Source: Chalara sp. BL73 (lineage: Eukaryota; Ascomycota; Leotiomycetes; Helotiales). Taken from it: DNA of 64,000 nt. The notes under the pieces were generated by a model. It was given only the letters and a program-made list of their open reading frames with translations. It had not been told where the DNA came from and did no database searches. Below are positions 16,074-54,200 of the stretch, one piece after another. Position 1 is the stretch's first letter; every line of letters begins with the position of its first letter. The DNA is taken from positions 310,001 through 374,000 of the forward strand of contig CAKJVC010000065.1 in assembly GCA_918026815.1 (NCBI GenBank). The letters are read 5' to 3'. A program made the position numbers and the translations under genes.

Positions 16074-19000
16074 TTATTCTCTATCAGCCAGGGTACTAAT
16101 CTCCAGTTTCTCTGCCTCCCACTCAAGTAACGTTGCTGAGGAAGACAGAGTATCCGGGTGATTAGACCCTAAGATCCTAGCCTGTACCTCTACACATTGC
16201 TTCATTAGCTCAAGAGCATCTATATCTCGGCCATGTCCTTTCCATATAAAGGCAAGATTAGCTATGCTGGTTAGCGTGTTGGGATGCTCCTGCCCAAGCA
16301 CCCTTTTCATCGTTTTCATCACTTGCACCTCCAATTCCTCAGCCTTTGTCCATCGTCCCTGATTATGGTATGTCGAAGCCAAGTTGACCATGCTGGCTAG
16401 CGTGTCAGGATGCTCCTGCCCAAGCACCCTTGAGCATATTTCTAGTTCTGTTGCTTGCAGTTCCTCAGCCTCTGTACATCGTCCCTGATTACGATATGTC
16501 GAAGCCAAGTTGGACATGCTGGTTAGCGTGTCGGGATGCTCATGTCCAAGCACCCTTTTACTCGTCTCCATCACTTGCACCTCCAAGTTTTCGGCCATTT
16601 TCCAGTGTCCCTGATTCTGGTATATCGAAGCCAAGTTGGCCATGCTGGTTAGCGTGTTAGGATGCTCCTGCCCAAGTACCCTTGAACATATTTCTAGTTC
16701 TGTTGCTTGCAGTTCCTCAGCCTCTGTCCATCGTCCCTGATTCCGATATGTCGAAGCCAAGTTGGACATGCTGGTCAGTGTGTCAGGATGCTCATGTCCA
16801 AGCACCCTTTTCATCGTTTTCATCACTTGCACCTCCAATACCTCAGCCTTTGTCCATCGTCCCTGATTCCGGTATGTCGAAGCCAAGTTGGCCATGCTGG
16901 TTAGCGTGTCGGGGTGCTCATGTCCAAGCACCCTTTTCCTCGTCTCCATCACTTGCGCCTCCAAGTCTTCGGCCATTTTCCAGCGTCCCTGATTCTGGTA
17001 TGTCAAAGCCAAGTTGGACATGCCGGTTAGCGTGTCAGGATGCTCCTGTCCAAGCACCCTTTTCATCGTCTCCATCACTTGCACCTCCAAGTCTTCGGCC
17101 ATTTTCCAGCGTCCCTGATTCTGGTATGTCAAAGCCAAGTTGGACATGCTGGCTAGCGTGTCGGGATCCTCCTGTCCGAGAACCCTCTTGTGCCTCTCCA
17201 TTACTTCCACAAAAGGTGCCTCAGCCTCATTATATCGTCCATCGCTGAACAAACACCGCCCATATCTCTGCGATAAAGCAATTCGGGTTTTTTCATCTTT
17301 GCCAGCTTCATCGGACATTAGCGCACGACATACGTGTGGCAAGTACTTCCTCCACTCAGTTCTATTTTGGTGGTTATCGTCTGGAAACACTTCCTCTAAT
17401 CGTATAATCGCCTTTTCGGTCCATTGAGCTATCAAATCCTTTTCCCGAAGCCAGTTTCTTGTCGCGAGATGCACTAGTCGGTGAAGATCAAGAGCGAGGT
17501 CTGCCGCTCGCTTAATAATAAACGAGTAGGCTTCGAGTGTTCCAATTGCATCTATTTTCTTCTTTCGAGACACTCCTGTCGGAAAAAGAGACTGGGGAAT
17601 GTCCTTGGGATCTATACAGGCAATAAATGACAAGTAGTCAGCTGCGAGAGGGTCGCGATACCGAATCTGTTCAAACGAAATGAACCACGTTGTAGCCACG
17701 GGGTTCTTTATATTGTTATATCTCCCGTCATCTTCAAATTCCTCGCTAAGAAGATCAATAACGGCCTTTTCTTGATCTGCAAAAAGAGATAAATAGTCTA
17801 CGAACGCGATTTTATTCTCGTTAATGTATGCTGCTGCCTGAACAATAGCGAGTGGAAGATAGGTGAGCTCTTTTAGTAGAGCTGTTGTATCTGGTCTATT
17901 ATTAACTAGATCAGGGTTAACCAAATACTTCTGTAGCAGCTCTATCGCTACGTCTTCGTCCATCACCGGAACCTCTACAATATTCCGGTGTGCAAGCTTG
18001 ACGGCCGTCTTCCTGTCGCGTGTCGTGAAGACGATGCATCCTTGCTCACTTCGTGGGAGGTAGTCAATTAGATGGCCGGATCTTGGCCCGCCGAATTGGG
18101 TGGTCCACATATTGACATCATCAGCATTGTCAAATACCAGGAGCCACCGGCCTGCGCTTCCTTTGCTCAAGTACCCTTGCACAAGTTTCTTTGCATCCGC
18201 ATTATCCTCGTCCGAACCGGGGATCTTGAGCTGTCGGGCAATGTCTAGATATGCTTGATGAAGACTTTCTATATTAGTCGCGGGTATCCAGATCACTAAG
18301 CAATTCTCATATCTATCTCTTATTCGGTAGACAAGTTCGAGCACCAGCTGGGTCTTGCCTATCCCCCCAAGCCCTATAATTCCAACTTTTGTAGTTCGGC
18401 CTCCCACAAATAGCTTTTCTTCAACCTCGGCAAGCTGGGTTCTACGACCTACAAAGTTAAGATTTCTGTCAAATGGGATGATAAACGGAACGATATTATC
18501 TATAGAATAGAACTCAGCATATGTTACATCACGTTAGATCTACCGTACCTTTTGGGTCTTTTGGATCGCTGCTGTCCTTAGAGAATTCTTTGACGGTCAT
18601 TTGGAGCCGTTTCAGTGCTACTGCCTTCCCCTCGCCGTATATAGGCGGCATAGACACCTCACAAAGGCCTAATAAACAGTATACCAGGTCTTCTTCTTCG
18701 GTTGTCTGACGTTGTGCTGCCCATCCTTTCCGCTCAGCTATGCTGAAATCAGAGAAAGGATTCCCTCGCAGGGCCTGAATTGGAATTTGGGTAATCTCTT
18801 GAATTGGCTTTTCGAGTGACTTTTTGTCCCCTAATAGCGTGCGCTCCTTAGAGAAGAATTCGACTATTGCCGGAGCAATAAGTTCTTGAAGCGTCCAGCC
18901 TCGAGTAAACCACTTGCTATCCCGGAAAGCCGCTTCCCATGTGCTCTGGCTTGGCTGAACGTCTCCGTCATGACTAGGTGCTGATACATCCGTGAGGTAC

Positions 19001-44640: not shown

Positions 44641-45524
44641 TGTGCTTAGCCAGAAACTTATTCCTACCCCCGGGGTAGGTGTATCAGAACCCTCAGCTAC
44701 CTGGATCCTCAAATCCTAACAACCGCTCCTAACTGACCTTGGTTGTTGCATCATTCTGGTAGGCAACGGGGAAAGACTCGCCAAGAAACGCGGTGGACCC
44801 TTTTCGTGGGATGGAGCAATCACTGCTATCGAGTCGTGTGGTGTTGCAACATCTAATTCATGCATATTGTGTCACCCGTCCTTCGAATAGGATGAGTGCC
44901 GATGCAGGCATTCTGCTAACAATTAATAGTTTGCTTTGCTTTTTCTTGGCACCCAGTTCTATTTTCGGCTTGTGCCAGTATTTTGACCTGGGTCATATCA
45001 TGGGCATCCATGTCCACAGCAGACCGCTTTACCCGTTATGCGGCTGGCATTATCCCCTGCTGCAACTGCCCGCACAAGATCTTATCATGCCCTGAGCTAC
45101 CCTGAAAGAGGAGCGTCCTGTTCCCACCACCTGAAGCACAAGCCGTGGCCTTGCTTCCGTGCAACTTGGAATGTCAAAAGAGAGGCATGCTTCTACCAAT
45201 TACTACTTGCCGAAAATGGTTTAAATACAGGGCTTCTCACCTCCTATATCTAGTAGTGCTTTGTCTCCGCTTAGCTATGGCCTTGAGGACTGCTACGGCA
45301 ACCAGAAGCGCATGAGATCGTGAAGCCTGTAATTTCTGAAAAACTACACCTTGGGTTACTTTTTCACTATGTGAGATCAGTCACTTCGCAATCCTTATCA
45401 GGCTTACATTGTTAGCTGATATATCCTGTTCTGCGACGTTTATAGGGATGGTAATGAAGAGCTTATGGCAACAAAACCTTTTTGTATTTCCGAGAGTGAG
45501 AAGGATCATGGAGAATATTTTTTT
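44641..45524. other. Region upstream of the intron array; possible exon remnants
   Basis: Short plus-strand frames at 44793-45095 and 45038-45253 have no recognised similarity. Just before the array, 45450-45524 is open in one frame (DGNEELMATKPFCISESEK, then DHGEYFF) and could be the exon feeding the first donor at 45525. It might itself be preceded by an intron with donor at 45371 and acceptor near 45445. This is speculative. Confidence 0.35.
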
Positions 45525-46739
45525 GTAAGTGCTACAATCTGAGGTTCTATCTGCTACTAATAAAGATATTGACAGGAAGTAAGTCTTGCTACGTCGACGA
45601 GATTAAGCGATGCGCCTGCTGACTTTGGTTGCGTTTGGTGATATAGCGTGTAAGTTTTGCTATGTCGACAAGGCAAAGCGATATGTTTGCTGACTTTGGA
45701 TGTATTTGGTGATATAGCGTGTAAGTGTATGACAAGACAAAGTGATGTGTTTGCTAACTTTGGCTGCGTTTGGTGATATAGCGTGTAAGTTTTGCTATGC
45801 CGACGAGACAAAGCGATGTATTCGCTGACTTTGGCTGTGCTTGGTGATGTAGTGGGTATGTTTTGCTATGCCGACAAGACAAAGCGATGTGTTTGCTCAC
45901 TTTGGATGTGTTTGGTGATATAGATGGTAAGTTTTGCTATGCCGACAAGATTAAGCGATGTGTTTGCTAACTTTAGCTGTGTTTGGTAATATAGTGGGTA
46001 AGTTTTGCTATGCCGACAAAACAAAGCGATATGTTTACTGACTTCGGCTGTGCTTAATAATATAGGAAGTAAGTTTTGCTATGCCGACAAGACAAAACGA
46101 TATGATTGCTAATTTTAGCTGTGTTTGTTAATATAGTGGATAAGTTTGCTATGCCGACAAGATTAAGGGATGTGCTTGCTAACTTTGGCTGTGTTTGGTG
46201 ATATAGGAAGTAAGTTTTGCAGTGATGACAAAACAAAACGATGTGTTTGCTGACTTTAACTGTGCTTGGTGATATAGTATGTAGGTTTTGCTATGCCGAT
46301 AAGACAAAGCGATGTGTTTGCTGACTTTGGCTGTGTTTGGCGATATAGTGGGTAAGTTTTGCTATGCCGACAAGATTAAGCGATGTGTTTGATAACTTTG
46401 GCTATGTTTGGTGATATAGCGTGTAAGTTTTGCTATATTGACAATACAAAACGATATGTTTGTTAACCTTGGCTGTGTTTGGTGATATAGGAAGTGAGTT
46501 TTGCTATGCCGACAAGACAAGGCGATGTGTCTGTTAACTTTGGCTGTGTTTGGTAATAAAGGCAGTAAGTCTTTTGTGCCAATACGATAGAGAAATATCT
46601 TCGCTGATAGTATATTTTAGGAAGTATGTATGACTTGTGAAACTGAGGAAATAGCTGACCCTATTGTTTTATTCTGCTAGTTTGTGAGCTGGCCTGTACG
46701 CAGTGTATTAGGTAATGCTGACCTCAATGAACAACCCAG
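45525..46739 (+). repeat. Tandem array of 18 intron-like modules with 3-nt spacers
   Basis: Eighteen consecutive segments each run from a donor (mostly GTAAGT) to an AG acceptor and are separated by exactly three nucleotides. Spans: 45525-45575, 45579-45646, 45650-45717, 45721-45781, 45785-45852, 45856-45923, 45927-45994, 45998-46065, 46069-46136, 46140-46206, 46210-46277, 46281-46348, 46352-46419, 46423-46490, 46494-46561, 46565-46620, 46624-46680, 46684-46739. Most of the central ones are 68 bp, so the DNA period is 71 bp. Each carries a branch-like GCTGAC/GCTAAC about 25 nt before an ATAG end. Seventeen of 18 donors keep GT (the one at 46140 is AT), and all 18 keep the terminal AG. Outer modules (first, and last three) are unrelated in sequence to the central 68-bp family but keep the same spacing rule. 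The array ends 6 bp before the ATG of the HET pseudogene. Confidence 0.85.
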
Positions 46740-46745
46740 TACGCC

Positions 46746-48779
46746 ATGGACGAATGGACCTACCCGGATAATGATGCATTTCCAGCATACTTGCTCCAGG
46801 AAAATCTTCGGTCATCTTATACGGCCTTTTTAAGATTATGCGATGACTGTCGCAGAATCAACCTGGCGAGCACCCTCTCTTCGTTTAATAACCCAAAGAA
46901 TAGCTGTACCCTCTGTCGAATCCTCTCCAAATGCCGCGAAAAGGCCGAGATCAAGAAGGCCGATCCGCGGCTTCTTGAAGCCCGATCCTACATAAGGGTC
47001 TGCACTATGCCAGGTATGAGACTGTTCCATTTGTGAAAGAAACTGGAATTGACTGCTGCTATCTTCAAAAGGACCCTCAAAGCTAATGCCATTCGGACTG
47101 CCTATATTCTTGAAATCGGGTAGCCCGAGTCATTTCCAGCTGATTAAAGAGTAGCTTCGACTTTGTGACGATGGCAAATGCGGGAGAGAGGATGGGTGCT
47201 GTCCTAAGCCTAATGACGCTTTGCCAACCAGGGTCATTGATGTAGAAGATAAGATTAGGCCCGACATCGTGCGCCTCATGTCGACAGACAAGATCACCTC
47301 GCCCACGAACGGACAAGGGTTACACTATGTTGCTCTGTCCCATTGCTGAGGCAAGCTAACGGAGGAACAGAGACAAAAATGGTGTACTACGCGTGAAAAC
47401 AACGAGAAGAGGGCTCAAGGATTCCTGGTTGCAGAATTGCCGGCATCATTTCAAGATGCAATAAAAGTCACTCGAGAGATCGGCAAGCGATACCTCTGGA
47501 TCGACTCGCTCTGTATCATTCAAGGGGACGATAAAGATTGGAGAACCGAATCCAAGAGGATGGAAACGGTCTTTAGGAACGCTTACTGCACGATTGCTGC
47601 CAGCTCCGCCGAAAACTCAACCAAAGGATTTCTCAACCGCTCAATTGGAGAGTCAGATTTACAATACGTGACAGTCCCCGAGTCCTTTCATGGCAAAGTC
47701 TACGTCTCCACATTTATTGATGATTTCCCTGGCGACGTGCAGAATGGTATCTTGAATACGCGGGCATGGGTGTTACAGGAACGAGCTTTGTCACGCCGAA
47801 CGATCCATTTCACAAAAAGGCAAACATACTAGGAATGTGGCGGTGGGGTGCGTTGCGAAACGCTTACTTATATGCGCAAGTCAGTCCCAATTTAAACGCA
47901 CCGCTTTGTCTTTATATTTCGCTTTTCTTTATTACCACCGACTACTTATTAATGAGCTTGCTTATTCCTAATTAAAATTAGTGCGAAATTTTCTTTTCGA
48001 AGTGACCCAGAATTCCCATATTCTATTAAAAAGCGTCATCGGGTAGCTCAAGTTAAGCTTTTTCAAGATCTGTTTGCGGAATACTCGAACTTAAGCTTTA
48101 CACAGAAAACAGACAGACATGTTGCGATCGACTCACTAGCCACGGAGTTAGCCAAAGCTTTCGGCACCAAAATCAAATACGGCATTTTTGAACACTATCT
48201 CCACAGAAGTCTCCTATGGCAACGGCGCCAGGAAATTTCGATGGAGTGGATATTTTATGCGGTTGGTCAGTCGCTTCCATCGTGGTCTTGGATGGCATAT
48301 TACGGGCAGATCGAGTATTTGGACACTGAGGGCGTAGAAGTGGAGTGGGATAATAGCGTTGCATTAGAGGACAAGGAGAGCAACAAGGCTAGCAATGCGA
48401 AGAATGATGGCTTTATCTTGAAGGCTCGAGTGAAACGGTGCCAAGATTGCAGAATCAACCCGATGACCTGAAGCATGTTATACGCGACGAGAACGACAAC
48501 GAAGTCGGGCGACTGTGGTTTGACCGCGACAGGGGGGACGGCGAATTCAAGATTTCGCATTTTGACAATGAAGCAGCAAAGGCTTCAACAGAAATACGGT
48601 GTGCTATAATAGGGAGAGATGCTAGAAGAAAGGATGGTGAACGGAAATATTACGTACTCCTTGTTGCTGAACGCACAAAGCGCCTGGAATGCGGGTTGTT
48701 CGAAAGAGTTGGAGTCGGTTGGATCCAGCAGCGTTTCATACTATTTAATGGTCAAGGCGATGAAGAGCGGATGTTATAG
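46746..48779 (+). pseudogene. HET-domain gene with nonsense and frameshift damage
   Basis: The sequence starts MDEWTYPDNDAF at 46746 with the Cys-containing N-terminus of this family (LRLCDDCRRINL). It then reads CDDGKCGREDGC and LPTRVIDVED (47165-47260) and the HET domain: VALSHC-stop-GKL (TGG to TGA at 47342), LPASFQDAIKV, YLWIDSLCIIQGDD, TRAWVLQERALSRRTIHF, and Y-stop-EC (TGG to TAG at about 47829). After a short unrelated or intronic stretch the frame resumes from 47978 (HVAIDSLATELAKAF, LPSWSWMAYYG) to about 48450. There a shift leads to the C-terminal DDLKHVIRDEN...WIQQRFILFNG. Both stops are Trp codons changed by G to A. It is not expected to give a functional protein. Confidence 0.85.
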
Positions 48780-49470: not shown

Positions 49471-49919
49471 CGTATGCCTATAGCATGTAAACTTGTAAAT
49501 TTGTAGCATGTAGACTTGTGACCCGTAAATGTGTAGCATGTAAGCTTGTAAGCTCGTAGCACGTAGACCTGTAGCTTGTAGCATGTAGGCTGTAGACTTG
49601 TGTAGCTCGTAGCATATAGACTTGTAGCATGTAGGCCGGTAAACTTGGGTAGCTCGTAGCATATAGACTTGTAGCCCGTAGACGTGTAAGCCCGTAAACG
49701 TGTAGCACGTAAGCCCGTAAGCCCGTAGTGCGTAGACTTATAGCTCGTAGCATGTAAACTTGTAGCATGTAGACTTGTAGCATGTAGACCTGTAGCATGT
49801 AGATCGGTAGCATGTAAGCTTGTAGCATGTAGACCTGTAAACTTGTAGCATATAAACCTGTAGCATGCAAACTTGTAGTATGTAAACCTGAAAACCTGAA
49901 AACCTGTAGCATGTAGACT
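49471..49919 (+). repeat. 15-bp minisatellite
   Basis: About 29 imperfect copies of gtagcatgtagactt and variants (cgtag, cgtaaac). Because 15 is a multiple of three, the minus strand is open through most of it and would read as repeats of YMLQV, but there is no gene context. It ends directly at an LTR-B copy. Confidence 0.85.
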
Positions 49920-51298: not shown

Positions 51299-54200
51299 TT
51301 AGTCTATACTATAAACTTTCAACCCGTTTTGAAATCCAAGAAGTGAAAGTCGTCCTGATTGATACCCCATGACTAGGTTTCTATTCCAAACAGCTATACA
51401 ACTTGGTGACCGATAATCAGGAGGCAGCCAGAGAATTTTCACATCTTTTTCTACTATCCAATCATTTGACACAAGTAAAGGAGTGTTCGTTGCTTTGCCA
51501 TCGGGCGAGAAGGCTACGGAATGGACCCATTTCGAGTAGCCCTCGAACGTCTGCAGCGCTGCTCCCGTGGCAGCATCCCAGAGCCGCACCGTATAATCGC
51601 CTGAGCCAGAAATAACTTGCTTGCTGTCGGGTGAGAAAGCTACGGACTCGACCCATTTCGAGTGGCCCTCGAACGTCTGCAGCGCTGCTCCCGTGGCAGC
51701 GTCCCAGAGCCGCACCGTACAATCGCCTGAGCCAGAGACGATCTGCTTGCCGTCGGGTGAGAAAGCTACGGACTGGACCCATTTCGAGTGGCCTTTAAGC
51801 GTTTGCAACGCTGCCCCTGTAGCAGCGTCCCAGAGCTGCACCGTGCAATCGCCTGAGCCAGAAACAACTTGCCTGCGGTCAGGGGAAAAAGCTACGGACT
51901 GGACCCATTTCGAGTGGCCTTTAAGCGTTTGTAGCGCTGCTCCCGTAGTAGCATCCCAGAGCCGCACCGTGCAATCGCCTGAGCCAGAGACGATCTGCTT
52001 GCCGTCGGGTGAGAAAGCTACGGACCTGACCGATTCCGAGTGGCCTTTAAGTGTTTGCAGCGCTGCTCCCGTGGCAGCGTCCCAGAGCCGCACCGTGCGA
52101 TCGTCTGAGCCAGAGACGGCATGCTTGCTGTCTGGTGAGAAAGCTATAGACTGGACCCAATCCGAGTGGCCGTTAAGCGTCTGCAAGGCTGCTCCCGTGG
52201 CAGCGTTCCAGAGCCGCACCGTTTTATCCCAAGAGCCAGAGACAACCTGCTTGCCGTCGGGCGAGAAAGCTACGGATCTGACCGACCCCGAGTGGCCCTC
52301 GGGCGTCTGCAGGGCTGCTCCCGTGACAGCGTCCCAGAGCCGCACCGTACAATCGTCTGAGCCAGAAACAACTTGTTTGCCGTCGGGCGAGAAAGCTACG
52401 GACCTGACCGATTCCGAGTAGCCTTCGAGCGTCTGCAGCGCTGCTCCCGTGGCAGCGTCCCAGAGCCGCACCGTATGATCGCTTGAGCCAGAAACAACTT
52501 GCTTGCCGTCGGGTGAGAAAGCTACGGACTGGACCCATTTCGAGTGGCCTTTAAGCGTTTGCAACGCTGCCCCTGTAGCAGCGTCCCAGAGCTGCACCGT
52601 GCGATCACTTAAGCCAGAAACGATCTGCTTGCCGTTGGGTGAGAAAGCTGCGGACTGGACAAACCCCGAGTAGCTTTTAAACGTCTGTAACCCTGCCCCC
52701 GTAGCAGCGTCCCAGAGCTGCACTGTGCGATCGTTTGAGCCAGAAACGATCTGTTTGCCGTCAGGTGAGAAAGCTACGGAATTGACCAACCCCGAGTGGC
52801 CCTCGAGCATTTGCAGCGCTGCTCCCGTGGCAGCATCCCAGAGCCGCACCGTTTTACCCCAAGAGCCAGAAACGATCTGCTTGCCGTCAGGCGAGAAAGC
52901 TACGGAATTCGAGTGGCCCTCGAGCGTTTGCAGCGCTGCTCCCGTGGCAGTATCCCAGAGCCGCACCGTTTTATCCCAAGAGCCAGAAACGACCTGCTTG
53001 CCGTCAGGCGAGAAAGCTACGGAATAGACCCACGCCGAGTGGCCTTCGAGCGTCTGCAGCGCTGCTCCCGTGGCAGCGTCCCAGAGCCGCACCGTTCTAT
53101 CCCAAGAGCCAGAGACGACCTGCTTGCCGTCAGGCGAGAAAGCTACGGAATAGACCGATTCCGAGTGGCCCTCGAGCGTCTGGAGCGTCGCACTCCAATA
53201 CGCTTGAACTCTAGGCTTTCTTTTTATCCAAGTAGGGATACACTTCTTAAATGTTTTTCGAACAATACTCTTTTCTGGGGCAAAAATAAGGGCTGAACAA
53301 TATGATTGAAGGGGCGCTTGTTCAATAACTGATCGATTATATGTAGCGAAACGCCTCGCATCATGTATAAACGCATGTAAATCGGGACTTTCATCGACCT
53401 TCTTATATTTAGTAGGGCTGCCTTTAATAACTTTCTTAAAAAAACGCAGCATAACTTACTTGAAGCCAGTTCTCGAACTTCATAATTATAACAATGCCAT
53501 CTGGCAGGCTTTTCATTAGGCTAAGCGCTTCAAGCCAGTAAATATAACTCGTTTTTAAAAACTGATGGACTGAGCCATCGTCTTTAACGTCACTAGTAGT
53601 GTCCTCTCTATTACAGTCAAGTAGATGGTCAACCCAATAAAGACAGGAGTATTGTGCTGCGGCTAGTGGATCTGGAACCGGCGGCTCGACCTTCTCAATT
53701 GGGAATCCAGGGGCATGCAATCCGTATATATCGCGTCGAAGCGTTCTAGATATAACCTCGCGCGATCTCGAGAACATCGTGTAGTTCACCTTTGCCTTGC
53801 CAGAAGGAAATAATCTGTCAAATGCTTTTCCGAGCAAGAAATCTTTTGCCGATTGATGGATGAAATAAGTGCGATTTTCTCGTACAGTAAAAAAAGAACC
53901 ACATTTGTTAACAACTTTCGTAACTTTATCGAGATTGGTGGAGATTTGCTTAGGCAGATCAGAGAGGGCCCCTACTTCGAGGAGGTGGAGTGGGCGGTAC
54001 GCAAGAGTCATAGTAGAAAGGACGAGACGGCAGAACTCAGGATCTTTGCGCTGTAGTTGTTCAACTTGACGTAACATCCGATCGTAGAACGGTTCCAACT
54101 CGGGTGGCATGTCTTGAAGCACATCGAGCACGTCCCAGCTTTCTACAAGCTCAAGCTCCTTTAAAACAAGAGCCGCCCAGAGAAAGGTCCCACTAGCCTT

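Follow-up and report, generated by a model that had tools for sequence, protein, structure and literature searches.

Putative single-codon exons between tandemly repeated introns in HET genes of Chalara sp. BL73

Introduction

The stretch of DNA analysed here (the window; 64,000 nt, C59:310001-374000 of the Chalara sp. BL73 genome, which comprises 58.7 Mb in 199 contigs) carries at 45525..46739 a series of 18 intron-like modules, each separated from the next by exactly 3 nt. Duplication of a 71-bp unit would account for the central modules, and a reading of this DNA made from the letters alone (the sequence-only reading) had left it as a puzzle why the outer modules, which differ in sequence, keep the same spacing. 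The locus raises the question of whether the 3-nt gaps are exons of one codon each, and of what keeps them at that length. Single 3-nt exons are known, and schistosomes have micro-exon genes (MEGs), in which a large share of the protein is encoded by very small exons, each a multiple of three nucleotides long and hence skippable without loss of frame. We know of no gene with tens of 3-nt exons in a row.

Results

Layout of the Window Array

Segmentation of the window array, which used the gap list of the sequence-only reading as input, yielded 18 modules and 17 gaps, every gap being 3 nt long, with module lengths, in order, of 51, 68, 68, 61, 68 (five times), 67, 68 (five times), 56, 57, and 56 nt. 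GT donors were found in 17/18 modules, the exception being module 10, which starts with ATAAGT; all 18 modules end in AG, and 14 contain a branch-like CTRAY 10-50 nt from that AG, in agreement with what had been reported from the letters. The parses of the window and of the paralogous loci C9, C67, C7, C3, and C156 all seek the pattern AG-NNN-donor. The one test that does not presuppose the number three asked how far upstream of each strong donor hexamer the nearest AG lies. This distance was exactly 3 for 15 of the 17 donors in the window array and for 150/179 donors over six array regions (C59, C9, C67, C7, C127, and C3; gene strand, picked because they bear arrays), against a background of 2/117 across the remaining window on both strands. 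The modules and the gaps were confirmed.

All parts of the array lie on the forward (+) strand. Exon 1 (45465..45524; 60 nt, MATKPFCISESEKDHGEYFF) is in phase 0 at the first donor. Intron 1 (45525..45575, 51 nt) lies outside the repeat and is 86% identical to intron 1 of C9 and 69% to that of C67. Introns 2-15 (45579..46561) form the core, with a 71-nt period made of a 68-nt intron and a 3-nt exon; within it, intron 10 (46140-46206) has lost its GT donor. The 3' modules, introns 16, 17, and 18 (46565..46739; 56, 57, and 56 nt), are again outside the core; introns 17-18 correspond to the final two introns of C9 and C67, with 62-83% identity among the three loci, and intron 16 shows 58-70%. The 17 predicted single-codon exons (45576..46683) are 45576-45578 (GAA), 45647-45649 (CGT), 45718-45720 (CGT), 45782-45784 (CGT), 45853-45855 (TGG), 45924-45926 (ATG), 45995-45997 (TGG), 46066-46068 (GAA), 46137-46139 (TGG), 46207-46209 (GAA), 46278-46280 (TAT), 46349-46351 (TGG), 46420-46422 (CGT), 46491-46493 (GAA), 46562-46564 (GCA), 46621-46623 (GAA), and 46681-46683 (TTT). 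They read as the peptide ERRRWMWEWEYWREAEF, without stops and in frame with exons 1 and 2. Exon 2 (46740..47013, YAMDEWTYPDNDAF...) encodes the N-terminal part of a HET (heterokaryon incompatibility) protein with cysteines and shares 69% protein identity with the C9 exon. The HET domain exon (47086..47877) is 83% identical to C9 over 264 residues and has three in-frame stops (one TGA and two TAG) that are absent at that place in the relatives C9 and C67. By these three stops and the one lost donor, the window copy reads as a pseudogene, a decaying member of its family.

Around the array lie HET genes, an NB-ARC-TPR gene, a frame of NACHT type next to a long array of WD40 repeats, and a long ankyrin protein, a neighbourhood typical of a fungal incompatibility region. 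A WD40 array with a 126-bp period (51495-53187) and a TPR coding array (16264-17186) occur in nearby NLR-like genes; these are ordinary repeat sensors and possibly a functional parallel to the codon arrays. Just downstream of the HET pseudogene, at 49501-49919, lies a 15-bp minisatellite (TTGTAGCATGTAGAC) that gives chance AG-CAT-GTAG chains in the detector and has a period that is not intron-sized.

Paralogous Loci in the Same Genome

A related HET gene, C9, contains 36 introns with 35 single-codon gaps (peptide ERDQLKEERNEERQYLQELRRDRRNRRYYEWLDEF). A further array, C67, was located by a search with the exon that follows the array; it comprises 43 introns and 42 single codons (peptide EDDARFDLRYGAARYRYVLDDERFFLAFIAAGAYSDSDRDEF), and its repeat unit of 74 nt was missed by the DNA search with the window's unit. 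Exon 1 of C9 and C67 is also 60 nt long (MATKPSCTSDSKKDHGDYFS and MATKSSYTFDSGEDHGEYFQ), with 70-82% pairwise identity among the three copies; C9 and C67 share 53% protein identity in exon 2, and the HET domain of C67 is 72% identical to that of C9. A search of the genome for the HET domain gave at least 145 matches at E <= 1e-10, and a chain detector was run on 30 HET loci and additional stretches; together they added C7, C127, C3, and C156 to the array loci. Parsed single codons numbered 17 in C59, 35 in C9, 42 in C67, 51 in C7, 7 in C3, and 5 in C156, while the decayed array of C127, about ten codons by eye, was excluded from the codon counts. The run of C156 is the weakest, with one GC donor and extra AGs within an intron. 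All parsed introns were 51-77 nt long but one of 331 nt, so that elsewhere no module is likely to have been jumped by the parser. The 331-nt module (G000:C7:2159992-2160322, L082) contains, within one array intron, about 260 nt of inserted DNA; by eye, the ends of the insertion resemble TTGTAACAACAG and TTACAACAG, and it may be a small DNA transposon.

In a tree of 16 of the at least 145 HET matches, the array loci all fell in one HET clade (support 98/99). The same clade includes C175, C10, and C11, for which the detector reported no run over roughly 1.5 kb of upstream sequence (a shorter stretch for C11), and at 20 further HET loci (L060-L079, about 1.5 kb of flank each, both strands) it found no chain of three or more such gaps. 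Chance chains of three occurred three times in the window besides the array (one on the + strand and two on the - strand), and once each at L009, L044, and L080; chains were also seen on the reverse strand of the arrays, and one of seven, with a stop among its gaps, covers the - strand of the TPR repeat at 18 kb. A query with exon 2 of C7 for more members returned itself and two weak matches only. In C3 and C175, the exons upstream have a match to a protein kinase domain, and the upstream exon of C156, without a Pfam match, resembles those of C3 and C175 by eye only. Some further details of these relatives were noted. The HET pieces G000:C11:722-1507 and C156:6503-7288 are identical in the tree rows, and the upstream part of C11, near the contig end, appears by eye scrambled with many short deletions, as in a decayed or misassembled copy. 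At C175:258196-258930 (L056), a kinase-HET relative without a run, one exon of about 15 nt stands by eye between two introns in the same place, possibly the starting state of the layout.

Reading Frame and Stop Codons

In one frame, the array connects the open 60-nt exon (45465-45524) with exon 2 of the HET gene. In C9 and C67, exon 1, the single codons, and the HET exons are open throughout (674 and 664 residues, respectively), with C-terminal ends alike, and the C9 protein matches the HET domain PF06985 (E 7.3e-33; 114 bits versus a curated cut-off of 22.5), which places it in the HET family. Exon 2 of C9 and C67 contains no in-frame ATG, and its frame reaches only 5 and 0 codons upstream, respectively; if exon 2 is translated from an ATG, the start must therefore lie upstream of the array. 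A start at the ATG of exon 3, before the HET domain, would bypass both exon 2 and the array. The proposal that the array is a length buffer in the leader of a HET gene agrees poorly with these data, as the segment reads as coding, joins two open exons in frame, and is hypervariable.

An intact frame is not by itself proof of the use of every codon, because any subset of modules can be skipped in frame. Skipping between modules would give many isoforms with different subsets of codons, and since all gaps are 3 nt, any combination of donor and acceptor keeps the frame; competition among many similar strong donors and acceptors would favour it further. Where donors are strong and uniform and introns are short, removal of the introns in turn is favoured, and we regard skipping between modules as a rather unlikely alternative. 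The frame would likewise be kept if the whole array were one large intron holding a minisatellite, with the first donor and the last acceptor used and the 3-nt gaps never exonic: the direct splice from 45525 to 46739 is also in frame, and the core of the array is indeed a tandem repeat.

The stop codons speak against one large intron. No stop occurs among the 145 single codons of C59, C9, C67, and C7 pooled, whereas shuffling third bases within arrays gave a mean of 7.0 stops, and none of 5000 shuffles was stop-free. Taken singly, the four arrays are just suggestive (P = 0.038, 0.024, 0.73, and 0.051). A looser pattern yields eight overlapping AG-TAA readings in C7 and one in C127, which were left out of the counts. 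Those in C7 lie away from the unit's own acceptor: they arise 4 nt beyond it, at GAA or AAA codons whose final A adjoins the G of the donor. The TAA filter in the codon parse removed nothing.

Variability of Codons and Introns

Column diversity was calculated from 14/18 units of C59, 32/36 of C9, 39/43 of C67, and 36/52 of C7; outer modules and columns with more than 30% gaps were dropped. In the window copy, the codon columns were more variable than all intron columns. Codon positions 1 and 2 were more diverse than every intron column in C59, C67, and C7, and in C9, positions 1 and 3 topped all intron columns, with position 2 below one column. With columns taken as independent, positions 1 and 2 over the four arrays gave a product of about 8e-14, a rough value because the units of C59, C9, and C67 are related. 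A non-coding minisatellite, in which the spacer would evolve like the rest of the unit and stops would be allowed, should look different. In C67, diversity by codon position was 0.66, 0.76, and 0.10, position 3 being nearly fixed as T (38 of 42 codons), which argues that amino acids vary here and not merely a mutable site. A single large intron is hard to reconcile both with codon columns that, in four arrays, surpass every intron column or almost every one, and with the third-base constancy of C67.

Unit pairs of C67 with two or fewer intron differences (n = 19) showed an intron divergence of 2.3% and a codon divergence of 49%; the amino acid differed in 16 of these pairs, and none had a synonymous difference only. 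Such high codon divergence between units with almost identical introns could also be produced by a mutation process targeted to the codons, without selection. We consider this improbable: the third-base constancy of C67 points to selection on amino acids, and third bases other than T are tied to amino acids that have no T-ending codon in C59 (10/11), C67 (3/4), and C7 (13/19), with shuffle P values of <0.0002, 0.015, and <0.0002. In C9, the link was weaker (13/26, P = 0.13).

Compared by eye, the peptides of C59, C9, and C67 have in common just an E at the start (followed by R in two of them) and an EF at the end (preceded by D in two). Against C9, the HET domain shows 83% identity in C59 and 72% in C67, suggesting that the segment turns over much faster than the domain. 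Amphipathic order was sought in the codon peptides and rejected: hydrophobic moments at 100 and 170 degrees did not exceed those of shuffled peptides in the four arrays (p 0.12-0.95).

Splice Signals

GTAAGT donors were present in 12/18 modules of C59, 29/36 of C9, 38/43 of C67, and 42/52 of C7, and CTRAY in 14/18, 36/36, 42/43, and 45/52, respectively. By sequence, the modules have the GT..AG ends and branch site of spliceosomal introns, conserved in C9, C67, and C7 and not in C59. Preferential conservation of the splice signals, from which the sequence-only reading had suggested selection on them, was not detectable in the window copy, where donor, branch, and acceptor columns had a diversity of 0.152 versus 0.172 for the other intron columns (p = 0.36; 14 units, hence low power). 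It was seen in the other long arrays: signal columns were conserved above the remaining intron columns in C9 (p = 0.0056), C67 (p = 0.0031), and C7 (p = 0.0006), being 2.6-6 times less variable. Such conservation of internal signals is not expected of one large intron. The dinucleotide ratios of the arrays are RIP-like (TA/AT 1.1-1.7), and a RIP-like mutational bias may add to the conservation of the motifs; as to RIP as its cause, the indices are ambiguous, and the changes between the HET regions of C9 and C59 show no strong one-way bias.

Kinship, Origin, and Exchange of the Repeat Units

The sequence-only reading had raised the prospect of the 71-bp unit recurring as a non-intronic satellite in another phase. 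A DNA search of the genome with the window's unit found it, among the best candidates scored, in only one other place, C9, and there in the same intron-codon phase. In best-candidate searches, the units of C67, C7, and C127 were found only at their own loci, with C59 and C9 sharing one type. The C67 unit is 65% alike to that of C59 and 59% to that of C9, and none of 60 shuffles reached either value; the possibility that it is unrelated to the window's unit was thus rejected. As their units are distant kin, the arrays of C59, C9, and C67 are not fully independent. The C7 unit had a likeness of 0.40 to C59 (reached by 36/60 shuffles), 0.56 to C9 (0/60), and 0.46 to C67 (3/60); without clear kinship to the C59 unit, it may have had a separate origin. 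Intron lengths in the repeat core of C59, C9, and C67 were 61-73 nt.

The introns of C3 and C156 were no more alike than interior-shuffled ones (mean 0.371 versus 0.360, and 0.352 versus 0.387, respectively), and in C7, modules 41-51 were only 48% alike, compared with 83% for modules 6-16. A 71-bp period as the sole source of the 3-nt rule was therefore ruled out, since C3 and C156 have 3-nt exons between non-repeat introns. This also answers the puzzle of the dissimilar outer modules. Because the introns of C3 and C156, and modules 41-51 of C7, are so dissimilar, the single-codon exon appears to be the constant and the repeat the means by which some genes multiplied it. For one large intron holding a minisatellite, it is awkward both that 3-nt exons occur in relatives with non-repeat introns and that the layout is kept by units that have diverged by at least a third (C59/C9 versus C67) or lack clear kinship (C7 versus C59), and on all the evidence we judge that explanation quite improbable. 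The units of C59, C9, and C67 were more alike within than between loci, which suggests that multiplication and homogenisation proceeded locus by locus, with the C7 unit perhaps separate. Short non-repeat runs may have come first.

Identical introns with different codons on both sides were found in two pairs of units, units 30 and 39 of C67 and units 17 and 33 of C7. They look as if the introns had moved without their flanks, as would be the case for introner- or transposon-like introns inserted between pre-existing codons. Such behaviour, suggested in the sequence-only reading, is poorly compatible with the confinement of each unit to its own locus (one type being shared by C59 and C9) in the best-candidate searches; in addition, one phase-0 intron per codon is not expected from random insertion, and in C67, 38 of the 42 codons end in T, as if this T belonged to the duplicated unit. 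Insertion of this kind is very improbable in our estimation. Later exchange within introns is nevertheless needed, because duplication of units alone leaves no different flanking codons on identical introns. Linkage between codon positions and intron variants was at about the chance rate (15 of 264 tests with p < 0.05 in C9, C67, and C7), and linkage between intron columns decayed over about 5 nt in C67 and about 30 nt in C7, with hardly any seen in C9. As it falls off within about 5-30 nt, either the units are strongly mixed or sites recur; the rapid loss implies very short exchange tracts or recurrent mutation.

Discussion

With high probability, in our view, the array consists of real exons of one codon each within the coding sequence of a HET gene, with the introns between them removed one by one, and forms a frame-proof coding minisatellite that would diversify a peptide ahead of the HET domain. 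This interpretation is drawn from the DNA itself: the layout, the frame shared with the flanking exons, the lack of stops, the hypervariability of the codons, the persistence of the rule with non-repeat introns, and the open frames of C9 and C67. Together with the paralogous loci, these features support the long chain of 3-nt exons envisaged in the sequence-only reading.

Each unit would consist of a short canonical spliceosomal intron, with a near-perfect donor (mostly GTAAGT) and a CTRAY about 25 nt before TAG, and one codon. We infer that each intron is recognised by intron definition and that the introns are removed largely one after another, each step lengthening the growing exon by one codon in the manner of a recursive-splicing-like ratchet. 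Stepwise removal is probable because the 3-nt spacing should make complexes at a neighbouring acceptor and donor exclude each other. The full match of the intronic GTAAGT to U1 would require no exon bases and leave the codon free to vary. As the length of an intron has no bearing on the frame, units can be added, removed, swapped, or changed in length with no frameshift resulting. Exchange within introns would shuffle single codons, and selection for amino-acid change would keep the codons diverse while the introns homogenise within a locus; frequent exchange fits both the identical introns between different codons and the fast loss of linkage. The product would be a stretch of some 5-52 hypervariable residues that precedes the HET domain and, in the kinase-HET relatives, lies between the kinase-like and HET parts. 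By analogy with the gene family, it might take part in recognition specificity.

Several known systems resemble parts of this arrangement. The closest is that of the schistosome MEGs, with which the arrays share tiny exons, lengths that are multiples of three, frame-safe skipping, and protein variation. By sequence, consecutive micro-exons with lengths in multiples of three make up a micro-exon architecture, a description by which we do not count the arrays among the schistosome genes: the exons of MEGs range from several to tens of nucleotides and are unequal, whereas every parsed internal exon here is one codon, the introns of the long arrays are tandem copies, and codons vary between units far more than introns do. 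Fungal stwintrons and tandem introns are likewise closely packed and removed in sequence; stwintron behaviour had been proposed for this array, but no intron lies inside another, and every module is complete, with its own donor (one of them lost in the window) and acceptor, separated from the next by a codon. Recursive splicing at zero-length exons also removes a long stretch stepwise, with a donor adjoining an acceptor, yet here each step would leave one codon in the product. The hypervariable repeats of fungal NLR and HET genes, such as WD40, are minisatellite-like coding arrays with their diversity in few positions; there, the repeat is the protein, while here the repeat is the intron and one codon per unit is the protein.

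Going one step further, we lean somewhat towards the view that these loci are a generator of peptide diversity that works one amino acid at a time. Single-codon exons on recombination-prone introns would allow residues to be added, deleted, shuffled, or replaced without frameshift; within one HET clade, several loci would each have multiplied and homogenised their own run, and combinatorial isoforms may arise in addition through skipping. If so, this would be an extreme gene architecture, with about one exon per amino acid across a segment of a protein, in which the introns are the repeat that makes the coding array mutable and yet frame-safe. To our knowledge, gene finders normally do not allow 3-nt exons, so such segments may be missed in annotations. 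The finding would bear on the smallest exon that the spliceosome handles serially and on the uses to which introns are put, and it would bear equally on how fungal non-self recognition genes diversify.
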